22,310 bases of DNA from a virus: positions 1 through 22,310 of IMG/VR virus record IMGVR_UViG_3300020160_002595, one strand, 5' to 3'. Below the pieces are notes generated by a model. It worked only from the letters and a program-made list of their open reading frames with translations, had not been told where the DNA came from and did not search any database. Made by a program: the position numbers and the translations under genes. Shown piece by piece: positions 503 through 15,518 of the stretch; position 1 is the first letter of the stretch; each line of letters starts with the position of its first letter.

Positions 503-940
503 ATGAATAATTTTGATAGATACATTTATAAACTCCTTCAAGAGTTGAATCTTGAAACAGGAAATTCTAACCAAACAGGAGATGATGCTTTGAATGTACG
601 CCAACATACATCTAATACTAAAACAGGTTTTGGTATGGGAAGTATTATACCGAATAAAACTCTTTCAACAAATAATAACTCTAATAACAGTAATAATGGA
701 AAAGGAATGAATACATTAAATATTCCAGAAGACAAATTAGATGAAATGTTATATGATCCAAAAACTAATTTTAATGATTTATTAAAAGATGAAAATAATA
801 AAAATACAGTTCTAGGATATATTTTAGGAAAATCAGATGATGCAACCTATAAGAATAAAGACAAACTAACTTCTCTTATGACTACAAATAAAGATTTACA
901 AACAGCAGTTAATACCTTTATTACTAACTCTAAAAAATAA
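503..940 (+). CDS. Putative capsid-targeted internal protein
   Basis: A 145-aa protein with no family I recognise. The N-terminus (F4-D-R-Y-I-Y-K-L-L-Q-E14) closely matches that of the next gene product (F-E-Q-Y-I-Y-R-I-L-V-E). It also resembles the T4 capsid targeting sequence, with a possible gp21-type cut after L12-Q-E14. A polar Asn/Ser-rich linker (about residues 55-66) separates this from a helical, charged C-terminal part. There is no signal peptide or membrane segment. The ATG at 503 is 5 nt after a late-promoter-like TAAATA and lacks a clear ribosome binding site. The stop is followed one base later by gene 942, so the two are probably co-translated. The inferred role is a head-internal protein or scaffold-associated cargo. 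Longer upstream starts are blocked. Confidence 0.8.
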   Translation: MNNFDRYIYKLLQELNLETGNSNQTGDDALNVRQHTSNTKTGFGMGSIIPNKTLSTNNNSNNSNNGKGMNTLNIPEDKLDEMLYDPKTNFNDLLKDENNKNTVLGYILGKSDDATYKNKDKLTSLMTTNKDLQTAVNTFITNSKK

Positions 941-941
941 T

Positions 942-1598
942 ATGAAATCCAAATTTGAACAATATATTTATAGAATTTTAGTTGAGCAAGAAGCTCCTGA
1001 ACCTCCTACGCCAGATGCAGGTGGAGGCGAAGAAGGTGCGCCAAATCCTGGTGAAGAAGATCTCTCTAGCGAGGTTATGCCACAGCAAGACGAAGTAATC
1101 CCAGAAGAGATTGAGCTTGCAAAGCTTGCAATTCGTGCGATTTATTTTAATTTATCTACTAAAGACGTTCATAAGTTAAAACTGAAAGCTGGTGATAAAA
1201 TAATTCCTTTTGAAAAAATTTCTGATTATTATGAAAGCACAAAAGATATAGTTCCTGTTCTTGGGTTTATTGAATGGATGATGGACAAATATGAAGGTGT
1301 ATCATCAAAATGGACAGAAGATCCAGAAGTTCGTGGAAAAACTATTATTCAAAAAATCAAAGAATTTAACAAAACATTACCAGAAGAGCAAAAACTTGAT
1401 AATGGTAAGCGTGTTTATTGGACTCGTATCGTGTTAAATTGTTTGCTTCATGGAAATCCAGATTTCAACATTAATGTTGGTGATGTAAATGAAAAAACTA
1501 TTAAAGAAGTTTTTCGTGTTCTTAACCAAAACTTTAGTGGTGACACAAGAGGTCTTTTTCCAAATACTGATAGTTTTAGAGGTCCGGCTACATTTTAA
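942..1598 (+). CDS. Putative capsid-targeted internal protein
   Basis: A 218-aa protein, unrecognised. Residues 1-15 form the shared N-terminal peptide, with a [LI]-x-E site at L13-V-E15. Next comes a Pro/Gly/Glu-rich linker (about 16-55). The compact, mostly helical domain (about 58-218) is rich in Lys and aromatics. The layout of targeting peptide, disordered acidic linker and folded domain suits a protein that is cut after packaging, leaving the domain free in the head. The ATG is separated from the preceding stop by one base (TAATATG), so translation is probably coupled. There is no Shine-Dalgarno. A strong promoter for the next operon starts immediately after its stop codon. The C-terminal domain may be an enzyme or a DNA-binding protein, but I see no catalytic motif. 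Confidence 0.8.
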   Translation: MKSKFEQYIYRILVEQEAPEPPTPDAGGGEEGAPNPGEEDLSSEVMPQQDEVIPEEIELAKLAIRAIYFNLSTKDVHKLKLKAGDKIIPFEKISDYYESTKDIVPVLGFIEWMMDKYEGVSSKWTEDPEVRGKTIIQKIKEFNKTLPEEQKLDNGKRVYWTRIVLNCLLHGNPDFNINVGDVNEKTIKEVFRVLNQNFSGDTRGLFPNTDSFRGPATF

Positions 1599-1599
1599 G

Positions 1600-1628
1600 T
1601 TGACATTCTAAATCCGGCAATGTATAAT
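1600..1628 (+). promoter_or_regulatory. Sigma70-type promoter, TTGACA-17-TATAAT
   Basis: Perfect -35 TTGACA (1600-1605) and -10 TATAAT (1623-1628) with the optimal 17-bp spacer. It begins one base after the previous stop codon. Transcription should start near 1635, only about 8 nt before the ATG at 1643, giving an almost leaderless message. Confidence 0.85.
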
Positions 1629-1642
1629 AAGTATTATTGCCT

Positions 1643-2938
1643 ATGAGTAAAAATGACTCTCTCAAGACGAACAAGAATTACACTTATAATTCGTCTAATC
1701 AAAAATATGTTTTCCATACGGAGAAAAAGTTCGGTCAAAATCTTGTTTTCACAAAAACAGCGATTGATACAATTGTAAAATTATACAGCAATATTACAGG
1801 AGGCTTAACTGCTAACGAAATTGCACTTAAGCTTTCAATTCCTGCTGATGCAATCCGACACATCTTAAAAGTCATGAATATTACTCATGACACTTTACCT
1901 TATACAGAAGAAGTTATTAATTCTTCTGATGAGGAAGCTCTTGTTGAAGATACTCTTTCAAGTAAAAAGTTTAACATTTTACAAAAGTTTGAAAAGCGTG
2001 ATTGGAAAGAAACTCAAGAGGATGCAGAAAAATGGCGTTCAATGAAAACATTGCAATTTGATCCTTTTGATCAAATTTTACAAAAATGGACTCCGCCAGC
2101 ATATATTCCATCAAGACCTATACCACAATCTAGTGGTCTTAAAGACACTCTTCTTTTAGGTTTAAGTGATTGGCATTACGGTCTTGTTGCACATGAGCGT
2201 TATCTCTATAATCAAAAAGAATGGAACATTGAAAAAACAAAAGATACTGTTAATGATTATAGTCGAAAAGCAGCAAGCGAAATTAAAAAAGGTCTTTATA
2301 AAGAAGTAAAACTTCTTTTACTCGGAGATATGTCTCATACTCTTACAGGATTTACAGACAAAGGCACAAAGCTTGAAGCACATCCTATTGCAGAAGAGCA
2401 ATTAGAAGTTGCATTTGACTCACTTGTTAATTTTGTAAAAACTATTCTTTCTGTTACCAACAATGTTTCTGTTGTTGCATGTAGTGGAAATCACTCTGCA
2501 CTTGGAGACTATGTGCTTTCACGAATGCTATCCTTATATTTCAAAGGAGATAAGCGTATAACTTTTGATATTACAAACAAAAGATTTATAACTTTTAATG
2601 TTGGTAATTCACTTTTCCTTATGGAACATGGTTATTCTTCTGTTTCAAGAGATCGTTTACCAGCACAAGGTAAAGGTCGTGAAAACTACATTAACAACTT
2701 GTTTATGGCAAAGCCAGAACAAATGATTGGAGTCCAAAGAAAATATTATCTTTCTGCGGATCAACATCATTCTGAAAGTTATGAATTAACAAACGTTGAA
2801 GGCTTTATGTTTCCAACTCTTGTAGGTGGTTGTCGTCATTCTGATAACTCTGGATATAATTCTCGTCCTCGTCAAACTGCACTAGTAGTAGATGACTATG
2901 AAGGTGTTACTTCCGTGAAGTATTTTTACTTTGATTGA
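1643..2938 (+). CDS. Metallophosphoesterase with N-terminal helix-turn-helix
   Basis: A 431-aa calcineurin-like phosphoesterase. The metal-binding motifs appear in order: D176-W-H178, G228-D229 with H232, G282-N-H284, H329 and the D-x-H-H segment at 373-376. This family hydrolyses phosphomono- or diester bonds using two metal ions, and several members are nucleases. Residues about 36-82 look like a helix-turn-helix of the resolvase or sigma type (TANEIALKLSIPADAIRHIL), suggesting it acts at DNA. An acidic linker joins the two parts. I chose ATG 1643 because an earlier in-frame TTG (1637) would fall at or before the expected transcript end. It leads a tight operon with 2940, a methyltransferase-like gene and an oxygenase. 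Phage relatives with this HTH-phosphoesterase fusion exist; their substrate is not known to me. Confidence 0.85.
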   Translation: MSKNDSLKTNKNYTYNSSNQKYVFHTEKKFGQNLVFTKTAIDTIVKLYSNITGGLTANEIALKLSIPADAIRHILKVMNITHDTLPYTEEVINSSDEEALVEDTLSSKKFNILQKFEKRDWKETQEDAEKWRSMKTLQFDPFDQILQKWTPPAYIPSRPIPQSSGLKDTLLLGLSDWHYGLVAHERYLYNQKEWNIEKTKDTVNDYSRKAASEIKKGLYKEVKLLLLGDMSHTLTGFTDKGTKLEAHPIAEEQLEVAFDSLVNFVKTILSVTNNVSVVACSGNHSALGDYVLSRMLSLYFKGDKRITFDITNKRFITFNVGNSLFLMEHGYSSVSRDRLPAQGKGRENYINNLFMAKPEQMIGVQRKYYLSADQHHSESYELTNVEGFMFPTLVGGCRHSDNSGYNSRPRQTALVVDDYEGVTSVKYFYFD

Positions 2939-2939
2939 T

Positions 2940-3482
2940 ATGGAGTTTTCAGAACTTTACAAAATACTTGTAAAGGAGATGAGTGCTCCTTGGCCTGATT
3001 ATTCGAATCCTGTTAAATCTACACACCGTAAATGGGAAGAGTGTAAAAATAAATCTAAAAAAATAAAAGGATTTCCTTCTGAGCAATTTGGAGAAGTGGA
3101 TGTATTTCTATGCACAGAAAATAATTCAAATAGATTTTTCTTTTTTGTAAAAGATAATCTATGGGGAACAGTAGATACTCAACTTTTACAATATGGCGGA
3201 GTTCAAATAAAAGAAACTTTGAAATGTAATTCACTCGGACTTTATATGTCTGATATTTTTAAAGATTATTTTCTTGAAAATTTTTCTTATATTTTATCAG
3301 ATTCATATCATACAGCAGATGGATTTTCGTTATATAGAAGATTGTCAAAAGACCCTGTTATTAAATTTACAATAATAGATTCAAATACAGACGAAGAAAT
3401 AACATTAGATAATCCAGATGATTTAGATAATTATTACGGCAAAGGTAAACATAATTTTGTTTATAAAATACAGAAAAAATGA
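2940..3482 (+). CDS. Unknown protein with capsid-targeting-like N-terminus
   Basis: A 180-aa protein. I chose ATG 2940, one base after the previous stop (TGATATG), over an in-frame TTG at 2931. From this start it begins M-E-F-S-E-L-Y-K-I-L-V-K-E13, a variant of the peptide shared with 503, 942, 7474 and 8510. The candidate cut site V11-K-E13 fits the T4 rule only loosely. The rest has alternating beta and helical segments with a stretch of four Phe (about residue 67). A late segment (SDSYHTADGFSLYRRL) recalls acyltransferase-like phage proteins, but I cannot confirm a GNAT fold. The 3' end overlaps the next start by 4 nt (ATGA). Unlike the other tagged proteins it is made from a sigma70-type promoter operon, which would imply earlier expression. 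Confidence 0.75.
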   Translation: MEFSELYKILVKEMSAPWPDYSNPVKSTHRKWEECKNKSKKIKGFPSEQFGEVDVFLCTENNSNRFFFFVKDNLWGTVDTQLLQYGGVQIKETLKCNSLGLYMSDIFKDYFLENFSYILSDSYHTADGFSLYRRLSKDPVIKFTIIDSNTDEEITLDNPDDLDNYYGKGKHNFVYKIQKK

Positions 3483-3976
3483 AAAGTCTTATACCAAAAG
3501 GTGGCGATGATAAAATTTATACGCCTGATTCTCTTGCCAAAAGGATTGTAAACCATTACAATCCTTTTGGTCAAAAGTGTCTTGAACCTTGTAAAGGCGG
3601 AGGTGCATTTTTACGAGCATTTCAAGATGTTGGTATAAATCCTCTTTGGTGTGAAATTGACGAGGGTAATGATTTTTTTCAGTTTAACGAAAAAGTAGAT
3701 TGGATTATAACAAATTTTCCATGGAGTTTACATCGTGAGTGTATAAAACACTCTATGAAAATATCAGACAATATTGTAACTCTTGTAACTCTTAATCATA
3801 TACTTGCATTAAAAGCAAGATTGCGAGATATTCGTGAAAATGGTTTTTATATCAGAGAAGTTATAACAATGCCAACTCCAAAAGAATTTCCGTCAAGCGG
3901 TTTTCAACTTGGTACAATTTACTTGAATAAGGTTGAAGGACCGTGTAAATTTACACATTGGGAAAATTATGATTAA
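3479..3976 (+). CDS. SAM-dependent DNA methyltransferase-like protein
   Basis: A 165-aa protein with class I methyltransferase features: an N-terminal segment D11-K-I-Y-T-P-D-S typical of amino-methyltransferases that look for a target, then motif I L35-E-P-C-K-G-G-G-A-F44 (SAM binding), an acidic motif II (E59-I-D61), and N79-F-P-W82 in the position of motif IV (N/D-P-P-Y/F/W). Motif IV of this kind usually means transfer to an exocyclic amino group, adenine N6 or cytosine N4. The second residue, normally Pro, is Phe here. At 165 aa it is short and lacks an obvious target-recognition domain. It overlaps both neighbours (4 nt before, 8 nt after the next start), so it is likely made in step with the 2OG oxygenase. 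DNA is the likely but unproven substrate. Confidence 0.8.
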   Translation: MKSLIPKGGDDKIYTPDSLAKRIVNHYNPFGQKCLEPCKGGGAFLRAFQDVGINPLWCEIDEGNDFFQFNEKVDWIITNFPWSLHRECIKHSMKISDNIVTLVTLNHILALKARLRDIRENGFYIREVITMPTPKEFPSSGFQLGTIYLNKVEGPCKFTHWENYD

Positions 3977-4448
3977 AGCAATACCAAATTTTATAAGAAA
4001 CATAGATGAAATAATGAGTCATGTAAAAGAACACGATTCGTTATTTCGTCCAAGAGAAGGTGGCGATACACATGCATCTATTATTCCTAATATTTGCAGT
4101 AAGTTTAAAACTTTAAAAGATGTTCATATGAGTAAAGAATTAATAGAATGTATTTTTAAAGATTGTGATTTTGATCCTGATCTTAAAGACTTTTATAACT
4201 TTATTCAAATTCAAAAATATGAGCCAGGAGACTATATCGCTCCACATCGAGATTCGTATAGTATTAGAAAACTTCATTTAATAACTTTAACAAGTTCAGA
4301 AACAGATGGTCTTGTTTGTGAAGATTCTAATCATGATTTAATTAAGATTTTTGATGTTGCAGGTCAATATATAGAATTTCCATATGATTCAGCACACTAT
4401 GTTTCGCCTGTAAAAAATTTAAGATACTCTCTTGTTGTTGCAGAATAA
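3969..4448 (+). CDS. 2-oxoglutarate/Fe(II)-dependent oxygenase
   Basis: A 159-aa protein with the double-stranded beta-helix signature of the 2OG-Fe(II) oxygenases. The H93-R-D95 pair follows a typical KYEPGDYIAP lead-in, the distal iron ligand is H143 (SAHYVSPV), and R152 (LRYSLVV) is placed to bind 2-oxoglutarate. These enzymes hydroxylate proteins, small molecules or nucleic-acid bases with loss of CO2. I chose ATG 3969, which overlaps the methyltransferase gene by 8 nt; an in-frame TTG at 3933 would add 12 poorly conserved residues. Tight coupling to the methyltransferase suggests the pair works on one substrate. Prolyl-hydroxylase-like and AlkB-like members cannot be told apart here. Confidence 0.85.
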   Translation: MIKAIPNFIRNIDEIMSHVKEHDSLFRPREGGDTHASIIPNICSKFKTLKDVHMSKELIECIFKDCDFDPDLKDFYNFIQIQKYEPGDYIAPHRDSYSIRKLHLITLTSSETDGLVCEDSNHDLIKIFDVAGQYIEFPYDSAHYVSPVKNLRYSLVVAE

Positions 4449-4450
4449 AG

Positions 4451-4479
4451 TTGACAACAAGGGTTTATTATGCTATATT
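4451..4479 (+). promoter_or_regulatory. Sigma70-type promoter, TTGACA-17-TATATT
   Basis: TTGACA (4451-4456), 17-bp spacer, TATATT (4474-4479), directly after the oxygenase stop codon. It drives the VWA gene at 4538 with an expected start near 4486. Unlike most promoters here it leaves a leader of about 52 nt. Confidence 0.8.
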
Positions 4480-4485
4480 GTATAG

Positions 4486-4514
4486 ATTTTATATACCCGT
4501 AAAGTGTATAAAAT
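4486..4514 (+). promoter_or_regulatory. 5'-terminal leader hairpin of the VWA message
   Basis: ATTTTATATAC (4486-4496) pairs with GTGTATAAAAT (4504-4514) as an 11-bp stem with one G-U pair and a 7-nt loop (CCGTAAA). The first stem base coincides with the predicted transcription start. No U-run follows, so it is not a terminator. It is followed by a three-codon open frame (ATG AGA AAT TAA, 4513-4524) and two copies of ATTAAGAAA ending at the start codon. Stabilisation of the 5' end is the likely role. Confidence 0.6.
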
Positions 4515-4537
4515 GAGAAATTAAGAAAATTAAGAAA

Positions 4538-6541
4538 ATGAAATTAAATATACCTAAAAACGAAGACGCAAAAACAAAACCAACAAACTACTTTTTTATT
4601 ACAGATTTGTCTGGTTCAATGTGGGGTTCCATTCCTGACCTCAAAGAAACACTCCGAGCAGTTAAAGATTTATTACTTCCTGGAGATACATTTAGTCTAG
4701 CATACTTTTCAAGTAGCCGCGATTTTGACTGGATTTGTAAAGGAGCTTCCCTTAACGGAAATTTAGAAGCTCTTATTGAAAATAAGATTTATGCAAGAGG
4801 ATTAACTTGCTTTAATGAAGTGCTTAACAGCCTTGACGGTGTTGTAAAAGACGTGCAACTAATCTCTGGAAATACAGAGAATGTATTGTTCTTTTTAACA
4901 GATGGTTATCCAAACGACAATTCACCAGAGAGTGAACTTTTGAAGATTTGTAAAACTCTTAAAAGTTCGTTTATCCATAAGCAAATTGTTGGATATAGCG
5001 GTTATTATAATCGTAAACTTCTTCTTCAAATGACTGAAGATATTGGCGGTGCATTCGCACACGTTTCAGATTATTCTGATATGAAAAAGTCTTGTAAAGA
5101 TTTTGTATCTTCTAAGAAAAAGATTAAAAAAGTTAATCTTGAAAAGAACTTCGACTTAGTATGGCAAGTTTCTTCAAATGCGGTTCTTCCTTTAGTTTGC
5201 GAAAACGCATCTGTAGATGTTCTTGAAGACGAAAGTGATGGTGAACTTTTTGGTGTAGATTATTCAGAGCTTGAAAGTCTTAGCAAAGAAAATTTAAAAG
5301 ACGGTAAGTTTGTTTACTCTCTTGCATTTGTATTGTCTCAAAAGAACAAAGCAAATCTTGGAGTATCTTTGCTTCGTAAAGCAGGTGATAATCTTTCTGC
5401 AAAAATGCTTCAAAAGTCATTTACTGTATCACAAAAAGGTCGTGCAGAAAATGATCTTAAAGTAAAAGCCGTGGTTGGTGGAGAAATACTTTCTTCTGAT
5501 AATGGTTCAGCAATTTTTATTGGTGACTTCCTTAAAACTGTAAAGTCTAAACTTGGTAAAGTTTCTATTGATATGAATGCGTCAAAATACACTTCTATTT
5601 CAAGAAAAGGTGGAGACGTTTCAAAAGTTGAATTTAAAACAACAGATTCTAATTCTAAAATTGTTGGAATTACTGGAAACGAAGATCGTGCAAACATCTC
5701 TTTCCTAACTGTTCGTAAAGGCGAGATTACAGCATTGAATGATCTTGATCTTAGTAGTCGAGTAATTCAATTTAATCAGACTGCAAAAAATCAGATTACT
5801 TTCCCAATTCAAACAGAAACATATCGTAACTATACACTTGTTGCGAATGGTGACTTTAATTTTGAAAGTCTCTCTTTAGTTTCTGATGACAGTGTTTATA
5901 GCATTAGTCCATCAAATGATCTTGATCTTTTTGATGAAAACCAGAAAGATATTAAAGTTGGAGATTTCACAAATCTTTATAAGAGTCTTATTGAAGAAAA
6001 AGCACATGCATCTGTTCTTCGCTTTTATATCAAAAAGTATGCAAAGCAAAAGCATTCTCTTGATCTTCGTGTTGAGCAGTATGGCGAAGAAGGTGCAAAG
6101 CTTCTTGAAGAAATGGGTCTTGACTATGCAATGCGTTTCTCTCCTAAAAAAGAGTATAAGCCAAAGGACGAGAATGCTGATTACATTCCTTTCCTAGAGA
6201 TTACAGGACAACTTAAAGGTGCATCTACTATCTCTGCTTCTAAGAGCTATGAAAAGTGGCTTAAAAAGGGCAAGGCGAATGTTGGTGATCTTATCGTGTA
6301 TCCTCTTTTTGAGAAATATGAAGATAAGCTCACTTCTCTTGGTGAAGAAACTTTTGTAGAGTTTTGTCAAAAGACTCTTGAAGGAGTTGAGGAAACTGTT
6401 GATTTGCTTTCACAAAAAGTATCTGCACAAAAGTTTTACCTTATGGTTACAAACTCATGGTTCACTGGTGTTGATAAATCTGATGAATTTGAATATGATG
6501 GTTTGCTTGTTAAAGTTAAAGAGACAAAAGAATATCTTTAA
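4538..6541 (+). CDS. Large VWA-domain protein
   Basis: A 667-aa protein with a von Willebrand factor A domain in about residues 17-190. The metal-ion-dependent adhesion site is complete: D23-L-S25-G-S27, a Thr in the RGLTCFNEVL segment, and the Asp of LTDGYPND. VWA domains bind partner proteins through a divalent metal. The rest (about 200-667) is a long mixed beta and helical region that I cannot assign. It has no signal peptide or membrane segment, so it is probably cytoplasmic or a virion component. It is a single-gene unit with its own promoter and a hairpin-bearing leader, and is closed by the terminator at 6572-6607. The A-rich stretch before ATG takes the place of a Shine-Dalgarno. A second, unrelated-length VWA protein lies at 12704. 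Function unknown. Confidence 0.85.
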   Translation: MKLNIPKNEDAKTKPTNYFFITDLSGSMWGSIPDLKETLRAVKDLLLPGDTFSLAYFSSSRDFDWICKGASLNGNLEALIENKIYARGLTCFNEVLNSLDGVVKDVQLISGNTENVLFFLTDGYPNDNSPESELLKICKTLKSSFIHKQIVGYSGYYNRKLLLQMTEDIGGAFAHVSDYSDMKKSCKDFVSSKKKIKKVNLEKNFDLVWQVSSNAVLPLVCENASVDVLEDESDGELFGVDYSELESLSKENLKDGKFVYSLAFVLSQKNKANLGVSLLRKAGDNLSAKMLQKSFTVSQKGRAENDLKVKAVVGGEILSSDNGSAIFIGDFLKTVKSKLGKVSIDMNASKYTSISRKGGDVSKVEFKTTDSNSKIVGITGNEDRANISFLTVRKGEITALNDLDLSSRVIQFNQTAKNQITFPIQTETYRNYTLVANGDFNFESLSLVSDDSVYSISPSNDLDLFDENQKDIKVGDFTNLYKSLIEEKAHASVLRFYIKKYAKQKHSLDLRVEQYGEEGAKLLEEMGLDYAMRFSPKKEYKPKDENADYIPFLEITGQLKGASTISASKSYEKWLKKGKANVGDLIVYPLFEKYEDKLTSLGEETFVEFCQKTLEGVEETVDLLSQKVSAQKFYLMVTNSWFTGVDKSDEFEYDGLLVKVKETKEYL

Positions 6542-6547
6542 TTCTTT

Positions 6548-6576
6548 TTGACATAGAGTAAATTATAGTGTAAATT
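6548..6576 (+). promoter_or_regulatory. Promoter TTGACA-17-TAAATT nested in a terminator
   Basis: TTGACA (6548-6553), 17-bp spacer, TAAATT (6571-6576). The -10 overlaps the left arm of the terminator stem at 6572-6603. Transcription should start near 6583, inside the left arm, so the new transcript lacks most of that arm and cannot form the full hairpin. Confidence 0.7.
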
Positions 6577-6607
6577 GGTATGGGGTAACTCCCATACCAA
6601 TTTTTTT
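6572..6607 (+). terminator. Rho-independent terminator after the VWA gene
   Basis: AAATTGGTATGGG (6572-6584) and CCCATACCAATTT (6591-6603) make a perfect 13-bp stem with a 6-nt loop (GTAACT). The outer bases merge into a run of seven T (6601-6607) that ends right at the ATG of the next gene (6608). Confidence 0.85.
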
Positions 6608-6949
6608 ATGAAAAAGCAAAAAGGATACATTGGCGTAGATTTCGACGGAACTATAGCAAAATATGAAAAATATGAAGGTCCAACAGTTTTAGGAGAACCG
6701 ATTCCTAAAATGGTTGAACGTGTTAAAAGATGGCTTAGTGAAGGAAAGAATGTAGTTATTTTTACTGCAAGAGTTGCATCAGATCATCCACTTCCTGAAC
6801 AGTGGGCAGCAGAAGCCGCAATTAAAGAATGGTGTAAAACTCATATCGGTCAATCTCTTGAGGTAACAGCTACAAAATATTCTGCAATGTATGAATTTTG
6901 GGATGATAAAGCTATAGGAGTAGAGAAGAATACAGGCGAACGAAAATGA
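6608..6949 (+). CDS. HAD-superfamily phosphatase
   Basis: A 113-aa minimal HAD hydrolase. The nucleophile motif is V10-D11-F-D13-G-T, motif II is the Thr of I51-F-T53-A-R, the Lys is probably K90, and the metal-binding acids are D99-D100. Such small HAD proteins dephosphorylate nucleotides or sugar phosphates, and some trim 3' phosphates from nucleic acid. There is little room for a cap domain. I chose ATG 6608: an earlier in-frame start at 6575 lies within the promoter and terminator stem. The ATG follows a T-run without a Shine-Dalgarno. The next gene overlaps its stop by 4 nt. It could supply the phosphatase step for the polynucleotide-kinase-like protein at 9036-9497; that link is inference. 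Confidence 0.85.
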   Translation: MKKQKGYIGVDFDGTIAKYEKYEGPTVLGEPIPKMVERVKRWLSEGKNVVIFTARVASDHPLPEQWAAEAAIKEWCKTHIGQSLEVTATKYSAMYEFWDDKAIGVEKNTGERK

Positions 6950-7434
6950 ACAACGATTATACACTTTATGCATTCTTTAATAAGAAGTCTAGAGCATTTA
7001 TATGCTTTACCTTTGACGTAACAATGTTTCCTGATAATGTTAAAGAAAACTTTTTAATTAAAGAGTTTTCTTTTAAAGAGCTTGATATACCAGATGAAGA
7101 AATTAATATGGCACGTTATCGTTGGATAGGTGATTATGATACTGGTCGTCTTGCTGATATTATATTAGAGAAAAAAGCAGTTGTAACTGAACGTGAAATA
7201 AACGAAAAATACGATGCTATGCTTTTTGATAAGTTTAATATTAAAGATATTTTATATGAACTTATATTAAACTCTGAAATGAAAACCGAAAAGGGTAAAC
7301 AATTACAAGAGCGTTTACAAAAAATCTTAAAAAAGAAAGAGAGTGATATAGAATTTTTTAAAAATTCAGAATTACATATTTGGGAAACTCAAAGCGATTT
7401 AAAAAATCAATTACAAAACGCTTTTAAGGTTTGA
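6946..7434 (+). CDS. Unknown protein
   Basis: A 162-aa protein I do not recognise. The first half looks globular with beta segments and a Y-R-W-I-G-D-Y-D stretch near residue 58. The second half (about 75-162) is charged and helical with a Lys/Glu-rich, coiled-coil-like end. It has no membrane segment or signal. Its ATG overlaps the HAD phosphatase stop (ATGA), so the two are co-translated from the nested promoter at 6548. The pairing hints at a shared nucleotide-related role, but nothing in the sequence shows it. Confidence 0.75.
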   Translation: MNNDYTLYAFFNKKSRAFICFTFDVTMFPDNVKENFLIKEFSFKELDIPDEEINMARYRWIGDYDTGRLADIILEKKAVVTEREINEKYDAMLFDKFNIKDILYELILNSEMKTEKGKQLQERLQKILKKKESDIEFFKNSELHIWETQSDLKNQLQNAFKV

Positions 7435-7456
7435 TATTTTCATACTTATTTTTCTT

Positions 7457-7464
7457 TATAAATA
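7457..7464 (+). promoter_or_regulatory. T4-type late promoter TATAAATA
   Basis: An exact T4 late-promoter octamer 9 nt upstream of the lysozyme ATG (7474). It lies within an AT-only inverted repeat (ATACTTATTT 7442-7451, AAATAAGTAT 7460-7469). T4 late promoters are read by polymerase carrying the phage factor gp55 and need no -35. The start would fall near 7470, giving an almost leaderless message for two virion-type genes. Confidence 0.75.
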
Positions 7465-7473
7465 AGTATATTG

Positions 7474-8508
7474 ATGAGATTTAAAGAATTTTATAAACTA
7501 TCGTTAGAAAAGAACGAAAACGTCTTAGAAGAAGGCTGGATGAATAAAGTTAACGTGTTATTAACTATGGCACTTCTTGGAGTGACATATTCTTCATATA
7601 AAGAATTAGAAACACAATACAATAATCTAAAAAAACAAAATCCTGCTAAAGTTCAAAATGCAGAAAATTTAGCTAAAGAAATAGAGCAAAGAAAAGAAGA
7701 GATTATACAAAATCCAGAAATATTAAATGATGTTGTAAAAAATCCAGAAGCGGTTATTTCTGTTATTAAACAGCAAGAAAATAAGAAACCTTCTCAGCCT
7801 GAGAAACAGTTAATCGCTCCTGATAAAGAAAAGGCAGCAGAAATAATCAAAAATAATATTAAAGATTATATTCGCTTTCATGAAATTAGTAACCTTGGTA
7901 TAAGAAATAAATCTTATGCAGATTCTAAAGGCTACTCTACAATCGGAATCGGACACCTTGTTCTTAAAGATGAAATCGGAAAACTATTCACAAAAGACGA
8001 AATTTCCAAAGTTAGAAATAAAAAAGGTAAACTGGTTAATGTTATAACAATATCTGACGAAAAAGCAGAGCAAATATTTGATCGTGACTTTAACGCAAAA
8101 TGGAAATCTGCATCATCTAAATTTAATTTCCCAAGTTTAGCAAAATATCCAGTTCAATTGCAAACTGCAATTGTTGATGGATTTTTTCGTGGAGATTTAT
8201 CAAGTAGAAAAAAATCAGGTCAGAGTCAAGCACGCGAGAACATTCGTTCTGCAATGACATCATTCTTCAAGTATAACCAAGCTATTGCAGAAAAAAGAAC
8301 AGCAGATGCTAGTAAATATTTAGACTCTGCAAAAAACTCATTACGTATCGCTTCTCAGAATTATTTAAAACATCCAGATATGCATGATATAAGAAAGGAT
8401 GGAGTAGATAAAAGAATGCGTGAAAATGCAAAATTAATATCTTCTGCATTAGAAAATTATAACTCTTCTTCCAAATCAATAAACCCAGAAATGACACCAA
8501 ATTTTTAA
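7474..8508 (+). CDS. T4-lysozyme-family (GH24) muramidase with targeting peptide
   Basis: A 344-aa protein. Residues 1-20 resemble a capsid targeting sequence (M-R-F-K-E-F-Y) with a cut site L18-E-E20 before Gly21. A hydrophobic segment follows (about 27-41, VNVLLTMALLGVTY), then a long charged helical stalk (about 42-125). The C-terminal domain matches T4 lysozyme: catalytic E137 in RFHE, D150 in YADSKGYSTIGIGH, and T156, with the E-D spacing four residues longer than in T4. It cleaves peptidoglycan glycan strands. It has a stalk and membrane-like segment instead of being a bare 18-kDa lysozyme, so local wall opening during entry is more likely than general lysis. ATG 7474 is preferred to TTG 7471. 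It shares a late promoter with the 2H phosphoesterase, one base downstream. Confidence 0.85.
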   Translation: MRFKEFYKLSLEKNENVLEEGWMNKVNVLLTMALLGVTYSSYKELETQYNNLKKQNPAKVQNAENLAKEIEQRKEEIIQNPEILNDVVKNPEAVISVIKQQENKKPSQPEKQLIAPDKEKAAEIIKNNIKDYIRFHEISNLGIRNKSYADSKGYSTIGIGHLVLKDEIGKLFTKDEISKVRNKKGKLVNVITISDEKAEQIFDRDFNAKWKSASSKFNFPSLAKYPVQLQTAIVDGFFRGDLSSRKKSGQSQARENIRSAMTSFFKYNQAIAEKRTADASKYLDSAKNSLRIASQNYLKHPDMHDIRKDGVDKRMRENAKLISSALENYNSSSKSINPEMTPNF

Positions 8509-8509
8509 T

Positions 8510-9046
8510 ATGAAATTCAAACAATTATACGACTTTATTTCAGAAGGCAGTGCAATACGTTCTTATTCCTGCTTAATGTTAGACTTAGGCTTTCTCCTAA
8601 ATGAGATAAAAGAATTACAAGAGGAAATTTGTCCTTGTGATGTCTATGACTTAGATCCTGGTCATGGTCTTGAAACTGAGCCACATATAACAGTTCTTTA
8701 TGGTTTACATGTTCAACAATCAAAACCTATAGTTGATAAAATAGATTTATGTCCAGTTACTTTTAAGATTAAGAATATTTCTCTTTTTGAAAATGAGAAA
8801 TTTGATGTTTTAAAATTTGGAATTGAGAGTGAACGTTTAAACTGTTTGAATAAAGAACTTTGTGAAAAATTCGAATACACGAATAACTATCCTGATTATA
8901 AGCCACACTGCACTATCGGTTACTTAATGCCAGGTGCAGGACATCATTATAAAAAACTAAAAAGTGAACTCTTTGGTAAAGAGTTCACTTCTAATCGTTT
9001 TATTTTTAGTAATAAATACAGCGACAAGGTTTACATCACTGTGTAG
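8510..9046 (+). CDS. 2H phosphoesterase (2'-5' RNA ligase-like) with targeting peptide
   Basis: A 178-aa member of the 2H phosphoesterase superfamily. The two catalytic motifs are H59-I-T61 (EPHITVLYGL) and H133-C-T135 (KPHCTIGYL). The family opens 2',3'-cyclic phosphates or 2'-5' bonds and includes the anti-CBASS enzyme Acb1. The N-terminus M-K-F-K-Q-L-Y-D-F-I-S-E12 is the best match in the window to T4 IPIII (MKTYQEFIAE), with I10-S-E12 before Gly13 as a near-ideal gp21 site. A mature enzyme would start at Gly13. It is translated one base after the lysozyme stop from a late promoter, as expected for a virion protein. Its 3' end holds a terminator for the opposing gene and overlaps that gene by 11 nt. 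Confidence 0.85.
   Translation: MKFKQLYDFISEGSAIRSYSCLMLDLGFLLNEIKELQEEICPCDVYDLDPGHGLETEPHITVLYGLHVQQSKPIVDKIDLCPVTFKIKNISLFENEKFDVLKFGIESERLNCLNKELCEKFEYTNNYPDYKPHCTIGYLMPGAGHHYKKLKSELFGKEFTSNRFIFSNKYSDKVYITV
8951..8990 (-). terminator. Terminator of the leftward kinase gene, inside the 2H gene
   Basis: AAGTGAACTCTTT (8962-8974) and AAAGAGTTCACTT (8978-8990) form a perfect 13-bp stem with a 3-nt loop. Read leftward, it is followed by U-rich RNA (UUUAG then six U, 8961-8951). It lies 45 nt past the stop codon of the kinase gene. In the rightward direction the following tract is poorer in T, so stopping there should be weaker. Confidence 0.65.
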
Positions 9047-9540: not shown

Positions 9541-10320
9541 ATGGAATGTAATAATTATACTAAGAAATGCCCTGAATGTCAACAAGAAATAAATTATAAA
9601 ACATATAGAATATTACAGAAATCTATTAAAGATAATAGAGTGTGTCGAAAATGTTCAAATTGTAGACAAAACGCCTATTCAAAGGAAGAGATACAATTTA
9701 TATTAGATAATTCTAAAAAACTCACTATGGAGGAATGTGCTGATAAATTAGGAAGAAGTATGTATTCTTTAATTATAAAGGTGAAAAAAATAAAAATTTC
9801 TTTTTGTAAAGTTACAAAAAATGAACATAAACAAACTTGTTCAAAATGTAGAACTGATTTGACATTGGATAATTTTTATTCTTCAAAAAATAGATATAAA
9901 AAAGTTCATTCTTATTGTAAATCATGTAGTAAAATTTTAAGAGATAGTTTAAAAAATAATAAAAAAGAGTATGATAAACAATATCGTAAATATAAATATA
10001 AGACTGATATTAATTATAAAATTCGGAGAGTTTTAAGAAAACGTTTTGGAGAAACTGTAAAGAAAGAATACCGAAAAGGAAAAATGGTTGATTTGTTAGG
10101 GTGTTCTGTGGAAGAATTGAAAAAATATTTAGAAATTAAATTTAAAGAGGGTATGAGTTGGAATAACTATGGTTTACGAGGTTGGCACATAGATCATATA
10201 ATACCATGTTCAAAATTTGATTTGATTAAAGAAGAAGAACAGAAGAAATGTTTTCATTTTTCTAATTTACAACCTTTATGGTGGAATGAGAATCTATCTA
10301 AAGGGAATAAATTACTTTAA
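9541..10320 (+). CDS. Free-standing HNH endonuclease with zinc fingers
   Basis: A 259-aa protein. The C-terminal HNH nuclease motif is clear: G-W-H216-I-D218-H219-I-I-P-C, then F-S-N242-L-Q-P-L-W-W-N249 and a final Gly-Asn. Two Cys4 sites precede it (C10, C13, C35, C38 and C100, C103, C126, C129), with an apparent helix-turn-helix between (about 46-83) and a very basic linker. HNH proteins of this type are homing endonucleases of phage genomes that cut a specific site and drive their own spread. It lies alone on the plus strand between leftward genes, and its stop overlaps the stop of the convergent 2H gene by 9 nt. I see no intron or split gene around it. Its coding sequence looks more AT- and Lys-rich than its neighbours, which fits mobility. 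Confidence 0.85.
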   Translation: MECNNYTKKCPECQQEINYKTYRILQKSIKDNRVCRKCSNCRQNAYSKEEIQFILDNSKKLTMEECADKLGRSMYSLIIKVKKIKISFCKVTKNEHKQTCSKCRTDLTLDNFYSSKNRYKKVHSYCKSCSKILRDSLKNNKKEYDKQYRKYKYKTDINYKIRRVLRKRFGETVKKEYRKGKMVDLLGCSVEELKKYLEIKFKEGMSWNNYGLRGWHIDHIIPCSKFDLIKEEEQKKCFHFSNLQPLWWNENLSKGNKLL

Positions 10321-10731
10321 CCAGATATAAGGACGAACACCTGATTTAGTATTACAGATTGTAATATGAAAATCTTGCTTTATATCTAAAAAAGAAACTA
10401 TATTATCTAGTTCCGAACCACGAACCTTCATATACCAGTTTTTAAACTTTTTAAAAGCTCCACCTTCTATTATATCAATGTTATATTCGAATGAAATTCT
10501 TTTTTTATAATATTGTTTTTTTAAAAGTTCTAATTTATTTTTCGGAACTTTTCCGTGAAGGGTATTCCTATAAATGGTTATATGACTACCATGAGCAGGT
10601 AAGCCTGTAAAAAGTCGAACATCTTTGTCAATTAAAGATCGGTAATATTTACCGAAATCATTAGACACAGCAATACGTACAACGTCTTCGCCAATGTATA
10701 GAGTGCCAGATGATTTGAGCCAGTAGTTCAT
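10312..10731 (-). CDS. 2H phosphoesterase, possibly Acb1-like anti-CBASS protein
   Basis: A 139-aa protein with two H-x-T motifs, H50-I-T52 (GSHITIYR) and H122-I-T124 (DFHITICN), 72 residues apart. This is the layout of the 2H phosphoesterases. The size, the R-I-A-V-S-N lead-in with Y-Y-R-S-L-I, and the single-domain form recall phage Acb1 proteins such as T4 gp57B, which degrade cyclic oligonucleotides used by CBASS defence. I judged this resemblance by eye and it could instead be an RNA cyclic phosphodiesterase. It has no targeting peptide, unlike the 2H protein at 8510. It has its own sigma70-type promoter, with the ATG 8 nt after the -10, so it is probably expressed early. Confidence 0.75.
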   Translation of the reverse strand: MNYWLKSSGTLYIGEDVVRIAVSNDFGKYYRSLIDKDVRLFTGLPAHGSHITIYRNTLHGKVPKNKLELLKKQYYKKRISFEYNIDIIEGGAFKKFKNWYMKVRGSELDNIVSFLDIKQDFHITICNTKSGVRPYIWLK

Positions 10732-15026: not shown

Positions 15027-15055
15027 ATTATTTTAAGAAGATAGTATAGAGTCAA
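15027..15055 (-). promoter_or_regulatory. Sigma70-type promoter for phoH, TTGACT-17-AATAAT
   Basis: On the minus strand, -35 TTGACT (15055-15050) lies inside the 3' end of the gp4-like gene, then a 17-bp spacer and -10 AATAAT (15032-15027). The PhoH ATG (15009) is 17 nt past the -10. It would let phoH be expressed separately from the late genes upstream. Confidence 0.65.
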
Positions 15056-15518
15056 TATTTTTTTCGTTAATGATTAAAAATTTATAATTCTTTCGCTTAC
15101 AGTAACTTTCTGCTGCTTCCCACTTTGCTTGGTTAATTGCCCATTGTAGATTCTCGTATAATAATGTAGTTCTTTTTTTATTACCGTGATTTGTAGGTGC
15201 TGAACACTGTCTTTCTGGTTTAACTTCTACCAAATATTCTTTTACAACCTCACCAATTTTTAATTTCATATAAAAATCAACAAAGTATCTTGCATATTGT
15301 GGAGTTCCACTTTGAGCAGATTTAACAGGATGTTTATAAGGAATAATTACTTTTTCACTACTCCACTGAACTACATTAGGATTTTTATCAAGAACAAGCA
15401 TAAGCTTACGTTCAAGACCACTACGATAAACTATATTCTCTTTATTAAGACATTTTTCAGAATTTTGAGGCTTAAATATCCCTTGTTTAAATTCTCTGTA
15501 TGTTCTTTTTTTAGCCAT
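15033..15518 (-). CDS. 4: Head completion nuclease, T4 gp4-like
   Basis: A 161-aa protein matching the T4 gp4 head completion family. The N-terminal F-K-P-Q-N-S-E-K-C and Y31-R-S-G-L-E36 are followed by V-V-Q-W-S-S-E-K-V-I-I-P-Y, then R-Y-F-V-D81-F-Y, and L-V-E98-V-K100-P-E-R-Q. Late in the chain comes W-A-I-N-Q-A-K-W-E-A-A. E36, D81, E98 and K100 lie where the restriction-endonuclease (PD-(D/E)xK) fold has its catalytic residues, and the L-V-E-V-K motif is characteristic. In T4, gp4 acts after packaging to finish the head before tail joining. Length fits (about 150 aa in T4). It overlaps the preceding membrane protein gene by 8 nt. This is the strongest sign that the phage belongs to the T4 superfamily. 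Confidence 0.85.
   Translation of the reverse strand: MAKKRTYREFKQGIFKPQNSEKCLNKENIVYRSGLERKLMLVLDKNPNVVQWSSEKVIIPYKHPVKSAQSGTPQYARYFVDFYMKLKIGEVVKEYLVEVKPERQCSAPTNHGNKKRTTLLYENLQWAINQAKWEAAESYCKRKNYKFLIINEKNIDSILSS

Follow-up and report, generated by a model that had tools for sequence, protein, structure and literature searches.

The DNA analysed here is a 22-kb phage fragment (IMG/VR record IMGVR_UViG_3300020160_002595; the whole stretch is referred to as the window), which was taken to come from a T4-type phage because it carries a gene resembling gp4, the head completion gene of T4. Five open reading frames (ORFs), named by their first positions 503, 942, 2940, 7474 and 8510, begin with the short N-terminal peptides described in an initial annotation of this DNA (Table 1), and the view that the remainders of the five proteins are unrelated was borne out, as their mutual similarity after the predicted cuts was not significant (best E ~0.5). 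All five leaders have bulky hydrophobic residues at positions i and i+3 (F4/Y7 in 503, F5/Y8 in 942, F3/L6 in 2940, F3/F6 in 7474 and F3/L6 in 8510). The leader ends in a strict [LI]-x-E site in four of the five, exactly where this had been placed (L12-Q-E14 in 503, L13-V-E15 in 942, L18-E-E20 in 7474 and I10-S-E12 in 8510); the corresponding site of 2940 is V11-K-E13 and its orthologues show L-G-E and V-D-E. The residues past the predicted cuts are LNLE (503), QEAP (942), MSAP (2940), GWMN (7474) and GSAI (8510).

Table 1. Leaders, mature proteins and neighbouring features in the window.
Feature	Position	Strand	Remarks
Leader of 145-aa protein (ORF 503-940)	503..544	+	MNNFDRYIYKLLQE, predicted cut after E14
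Leader of 218-aa protein (ORF 942-1598)	942..986	+	MKSKFEQYIYRILVE, predicted cut after E15
Leader of 180-aa protein (ORF 2940-3482)	2940..2978	+	MEFSELYKILVKE, predicted cut after E13, V-K-E, weakest site
Leader of lysozyme-like 344-aa protein (ORF 7474-8508)	7474..7533	+	MRFKEFYKLSLEKNENVLEE, predicted cut after E20
Mature lysozyme-like protein (predicted)	7534..8508	+	begins with hydrophobic stretch VNVLLTMALLGVTYS
Lysozyme/2H gene junction, variable cargo slot	8508..8510	+	empty in the window
Leader of 2H phosphodiesterase (ORF 8510-9046)	8510..8545	+	MKFKQLYDFISE, predicted cut after E12
Mature 2H phosphodiesterase domain (predicted)	8546..9046	+	H-I-T and H-C-T motifs; PF13563 E=1.2e-9
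T4 gp4-like head completion gene	15033..15518	-	marks the fragment as T4-type

In these features the leaders resemble those of the T4 internal proteins IPI, IPII and IPIII and the propeptide of Alt, in which an N-terminal capsid-targeting sequence (CTS) of 10-19 residues, with hydrophobic residues three apart and an L/I-x-E cut, precedes unrelated bodies (PMC9026906). Work with T4 amber-suppressor mutants assigned targeting mainly to residues 4 and 7 of the CTS and processing to residues 8 and 10 (PMC9026906), and the T4 internal proteins have been described as diverse defence proteins with only the CTS in common (PMC3012670).

The leader was retained in the orthologues found for all five window proteins. 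When 26 phage 2H proteins of the 8510 family, down to 32% identity, were aligned, only M1 and E12, the predicted cut residue, were nearly invariant within the leader. In the 942 family F5, Y8 and E15 were invariant in seven orthologues down to 35% identity and the leader and linker otherwise varied in sequence and length; the F5/Y8 spacing and E15 match the T4 targeting residues 4/7 and the T4 cut Glu. The leaders of the 2940 orthologues are MEFSDLYKMLLGE, MEFHSLYKILVDE and MQFSDLYKMLLGE, and the 7474 orthologues retain both MKF.ELY.. and, at about residue 20, a second site of the form [VI]-x-E-E|[GS]. For 503 the orthologous leader is MTQFDSYVKKIMEE in G007, where it stands on a separate gene, and MNNFDGYVFKVLKE in G002, where it lies inside a 924-aa ORF. 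That ORF (L082:9076-11850, minus strand) is an in-frame fusion: its first part is a protein of about 780 aa, which has a leader-like peptide at its own start, and the 503 orthologue follows together with its leader. The two proteins are encoded separately in G007. In the AlphaFold model of 8510 residues 1-13 had predicted local distance difference test (pLDDT) scores under 50 and included a helix (3-11), and the confident fold started from about residue 19, so that in this model residues 1-13, and with them the leader, are outside the folded domain; the model of the 942 protein was too poor for use.

Loose regular expressions gave enrichment but also noise and a profile test was therefore used instead. 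The leader profile was trained on the leaders of 8510 homologues only and was then run on proteins unseen in training. Applied to the 29 N-termini of the window, it placed the four leaders outside the 8510 family at ranks 2, 4, 5 and 6. For T4 the set comprised 110 annotated proteins, roughly half of what the genome encodes; IPIII ranked first, gp22 third, IPII fourth, gp24 ninth and IPI tenth, and the ten gp21 substrates outscored the remaining proteins (Mann-Whitney p=7e-5). Given that Alt, gp21, gp23, gp67 and gp68 ranked only 19-46, the profile detects CTS-like leaders and not all gp21 substrates. The second rank in T4 was taken by 57B (L102:13953-14411), the T4 Acb1 gene adjoining ipI, the product of which starts MMEFKDF and has no clear L-x-E thereafter. 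When the window and eight related contigs were scanned with the 8510 family excluded, a score of at least 5 was reached by 48/1143 N-terminal Met windows and by 30/2875 internal ones (p=8e-10, an optimistic value because members of one orthologous family recur in the count). In the contig G017 alone a score of 11 was reached by 25/333 N-terminal and 0/813 internal windows.

The related contigs were gathered by their common 2H gene and several of them carry arrays of leaders. In G013 (183 kb) a strict pattern found 12 proteins whose start is MK..KLFE.F..E or a near variant, the majority encoded in a single block (174868-182703), and in G017 (200 kb) about 25 tagged proteins were found. With a pattern leaving the next residue free, roughly MK..KLFE.F[IV]NE|, 35 leaders were collected from the two contigs, some of them probably orthologues between the two, and the residue after Glu was Ala, Gly or Ser in 25 of these 35 (background 18.7%, p=1.5e-11); P3 was Ile, Val or Leu and P2 mostly Asn. 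Within the G013 leaders identical residues shared their codon 257 times, with 254.5 expected from codon usage. Since synonymous codons thus matched expectation, selection keeps the peptide and not copied DNA, and recent copying of leader DNA was rejected as the cause of the similarity. The wording of the leader differs between lineages, being MKFKELYx.. and FDxYIxKLLxE in the window, MKHIKLFEEFINE in G013 and G017, and MIKLKxLLxE in G019 (289 kb), where it is present on cargo and on the genes around portal and S77 protease alike. One leader gene of G013 (63783-64154) is situated between the portal and S77 protease genes, which is the position of gp67/68 in T4. A tblastn search for isolates with the MKHIKLFEEF leader returned no match, the 20-aa query being a weak one. 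Two repeat-bearing loci were also seen in these contigs: a 351-aa leader protein in G013 (176755-177810) with repeated IVNE/TVNE sites between segments, as if the prohead protease made several pieces of it, and tandem small proteins at 22-37 kb in G007 (L087) with leucine-rich-repeat-like repeats such as LKKLENIPEIINGSFDCSFNKL.

That at least two of the five proteins are enzymes, as had been proposed, was confirmed at the level of domains. The 7474 protein matched Phage_lysozyme (E=5e-4) and the gp5 PHROG (E=2e-7). The hydrophobic stretch directly past its predicted cut (window 7534-7590) is also present in orthologues and may anchor the mature enzyme in a membrane. The 8510 protein is a 2H phosphodiesterase, and the His and Thr of both H-x-T motifs were invariant in the alignment of 2H homologues. 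Its structural matches included Usb1, the phage BCSR5 phosphodiesterase, Acb1 and a poxvirus cGAMP phosphodiesterase, and because of these matches the destruction of a cyclic-nucleotide alarm is a plausible role for the modelled 2H fold; it is one option of several, RNA end processing being another. The 2H fold and both H-x-T motifs of 8510 are shared by Acb1 and further 2H phosphodiesterases (T4 57B, BCSR5 PDE, poxvirus cGAMP PDE, LigT and Usb1); 8510 differs from them in its predicted removable head-targeting leader and in a Pfam Acb1 score below the curated cut-off (PF23474, 23.8 bits vs 27). A second protein of the window with two H-x-T motifs (HIT and HIT; 10312-10731, minus strand) is leaderless, had no Pfam match and is perhaps another 2H-type enzyme.

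Other members of the window's clade have leader genes at the junction between the lysozyme-like and 2H genes: G001 has one, of 399 aa, and G009 has two, of 130 and 407 aa. An ADP-ribosyltransferase-like motif was seen by eye in these slot proteins and was unconfirmed by any family search. Further proteins with leaders in the relatives are, in G011, a CCA-adding enzyme and a Nudix hydrolase, in G021 a GP88-family protein and in G013 a P-loop kinase with similarity to zeta toxin.

If the leaders are processed as in T4, a gp21-like protease should be encoded in the same genomes, and the initial annotation had proposed to look for one. The S77 protease was present in G011, G013, G016-G019, LR745206 and LR756502, all with a leader-bearing 2H protein, and also in two metagenome-assembled genomes (MAGs) whose 2H copy has the leader; no S77 was found in two MAGs in which a leaderless 2H domain lies inside a large protein. 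In an alignment with T4 gp21, the His (GEL[DN]HP) and Ser (SSR) of the relatives' S77 proteins were invariant. The protease was seen in more distant relatives that have the leader-bearing 2H gene too, but neither in the window fragment nor in the contigs, all incomplete, of the relatives closest to it. A 254-kb contig of a Bacteroidetes MAG (L158 / G051 contig 291), which holds a leader-bearing 2H gene together with S77, is probably a binned jumbo phage. In G011 (L099:16387-18156) the S77 matches are split and sequence inspection indicated an intein-like insertion of about 350 aa directly after the catalytic GELNH, and in G013 (64213-66063; L061, L071) one ORF of 616 aa joins S77 to a long acidic region resembling a scaffold, as though a single gene supplied both protease and scaffold. 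The S77 model missed Maribacter phage Molly, which has an annotated prohead core protease; no virion proteomics for this phage was found in its paper.

We consider it very probable that the five peptides are capsid-targeting propeptides that are cut by an S77 protease and deliver their proteins into the host. Four predictions of such a function held, since the targeting and cut positions are conserved while their surroundings drift, the residue after Glu is mostly Ala, Gly or Ser, head-module genes adjoining the protease bear the same leader, and relatives encode S77 with invariant His and Ser. The proposal of a packaged and injected cargo set was in this way supported as far as capsid targeting is concerned, while cleavage, packaging and injection are steps that we infer. 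In the proposed mechanism, a leader of 12-20 residues, predicted to be helical, with its i/i+3 bulky hydrophobics and terminal hydrophobic-x-Glu, would, late in infection, dock the protein onto the scaffolding core while the prohead is being assembled. The gp21-type S77 prohead protease would then cut after Glu and free the mature protein within the head, and this protein would pass into the next host together with the DNA. The tag would act as a genome-wide address on unrelated proteins, worded differently in each lineage, with cargo genes gained and lost in the slot beside the 2H gene. Early host takeover and counter-defence are likely roles for such cargo, and the lysozyme-like protein may act on the cell wall or membrane.

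Several observations weigh against this interpretation. Genes for S77, portal and capsid were found neither in the window nor in the contigs, all incomplete, of the nearest relatives; in particular, S77 was not found in G001, G002, G007, G009 and G021 with PF03420, an S77 alignment and iterated head-protein profiles. Capsid-profile matches of 95-200 aa in G002, G009 and G021 were rejected, as they are not full capsid genes, and an S77 contig from the metagenome of G002 (L140) was discarded as a clade member, as its gp4 differs and it probably belongs to another phage. S77 was likewise not found in G015 and G020, large and possibly incomplete fragments with a leader-bearing 2H. Conversely, three S77 records (LR756504, LR756508 and LR756511) have a 2H without evident leader, and given that some S77 phages carry a leaderless 2H a strict link between leader and S77 was rejected. 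The protein 2940 lacks [LI] at its cut. Finally, four of the five genes had been said to lie behind late-type TAAATA sites and this did not hold, since only 503 (TAAATA at 492-497, 5 nt before the ATG) and 7474 (TATAAATA at 7457-7464) have one close upstream. TAAATA occurred 40 times in the window, with 56.7 expected by chance, and TATAAATA 5 times, with 4.5 expected; late promoters beyond chance were not found in the window, and with fewer sites than chance TAAATA was dropped as support.

A different reading of the same leaders is that they are prohead-protease propeptides on proteins that build the head, such as core, scaffold or other structural proteins, rather than on injected effectors. 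The leader genes in the head module at the gp67/68 position would fit it, as would the low-complexity or acidic linkers of 503 and 942, which have no recognised enzyme domain, and T4 gp67, gp68 and gp22 are gp21 substrates as well, which are degraded (PMC9958956). We nevertheless regard it as unlikely, given that at least two members are enzymes (lysozyme-like and 2H), that relatives have the leader on CCA-adding, Nudix and kinase-like proteins, and that the T4 precedent is the injected internal proteins and Alt (PMC9026906). It is far less probable that the N-terminal helix has some other role in the infected cell, such as targeting to a membrane or replication compartment, and that the Glu site is incidental: in its favour are the amphipathic look of the peptides and the hydrophobic stretch that comes right after the site in the lysozyme-like protein, but Glu is the best conserved leader residue, small residues come after it, and the leader profile recovers the T4 internal proteins. 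Chance resemblance, suggested by the frequency of Met-Lys-Phe-like starts in AT-rich genes, by the ease with which hydrophobic-x-Glu is found and by matches of loose patterns in ~1-3% of internal Met windows, is already refuted for the whole set by the retention of leader and Glu across divergent orthologues, the 25 N-terminal and no internal windows of G017 and the preference for Ala, Gly or Ser after Glu, although the weak member 2940 taken alone, over which the unrelated window N-terminus 12405 scores slightly, could still be due to chance.

The capsid-targeting function of the leaders can be compared with what has been described in other phages. The T4 internal proteins are cargo that acts on the host (PMC9026906), and a parallel is drawn here for the tagged proteins; it has also been suggested that the CTS may allow T4-like phages to package various proteins (PMC9026906). 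The present system, in which packaging is predicted, is unlike T4 in its lineage-specific wording, in the far larger number of tagged proteins per genome (~25 in G017), in its enzyme-rich cargo and in the variable slot. At the level of description there is also a likeness to the propeptides of head and ejection proteins in the giant phage SPN3US, for which three reports describe packaged and ejected proteins matured by a gp21-related prohead protease (PMC5694885, PMC7411985, PMC10052503). In the literature examined, a shared short address peptide on unrelated cargo was described for T4 only. As far as the literature searched shows, the lineage-specific wordings, the arrays of 12 to ~25 tagged proteins, the enzyme-rich cargo and the exchangeable slot are new, as is the test in which T4 internal proteins are recovered from the leaders of an unrelated family.

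It seems somewhat more probable than the opposite that a large and little-described branch of T4-type and jumbo phages uses lineage-specific address tags to load the head with dozens of different proteins, including many enzymes (about 25 tagged proteins in one 200-kb contig and at least 12 in another), that cargo genes are exchanged in fixed slots, and that the genomes of uncultured phages could thus be read for the effectors that they inject. Proteins that are carried in the head and injected are normally learned only by virion proteomics, and the few cases of T4 form the textbook set. If the leaders are capsid-targeting tags, the injected proteins of uncultured phages would be predictable from their N-termini, and given that related large phages carry up to ~25 tagged proteins, injected proteins might therefore be predicted from sequence alone. 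Many phage genes without an assigned role would then gain a first one, as delivered effectors or in counter-defence, and packaged 2H phosphodiesterases, Nudix and nucleotidyltransferase enzymes could be tested as acting before any phage gene is expressed.

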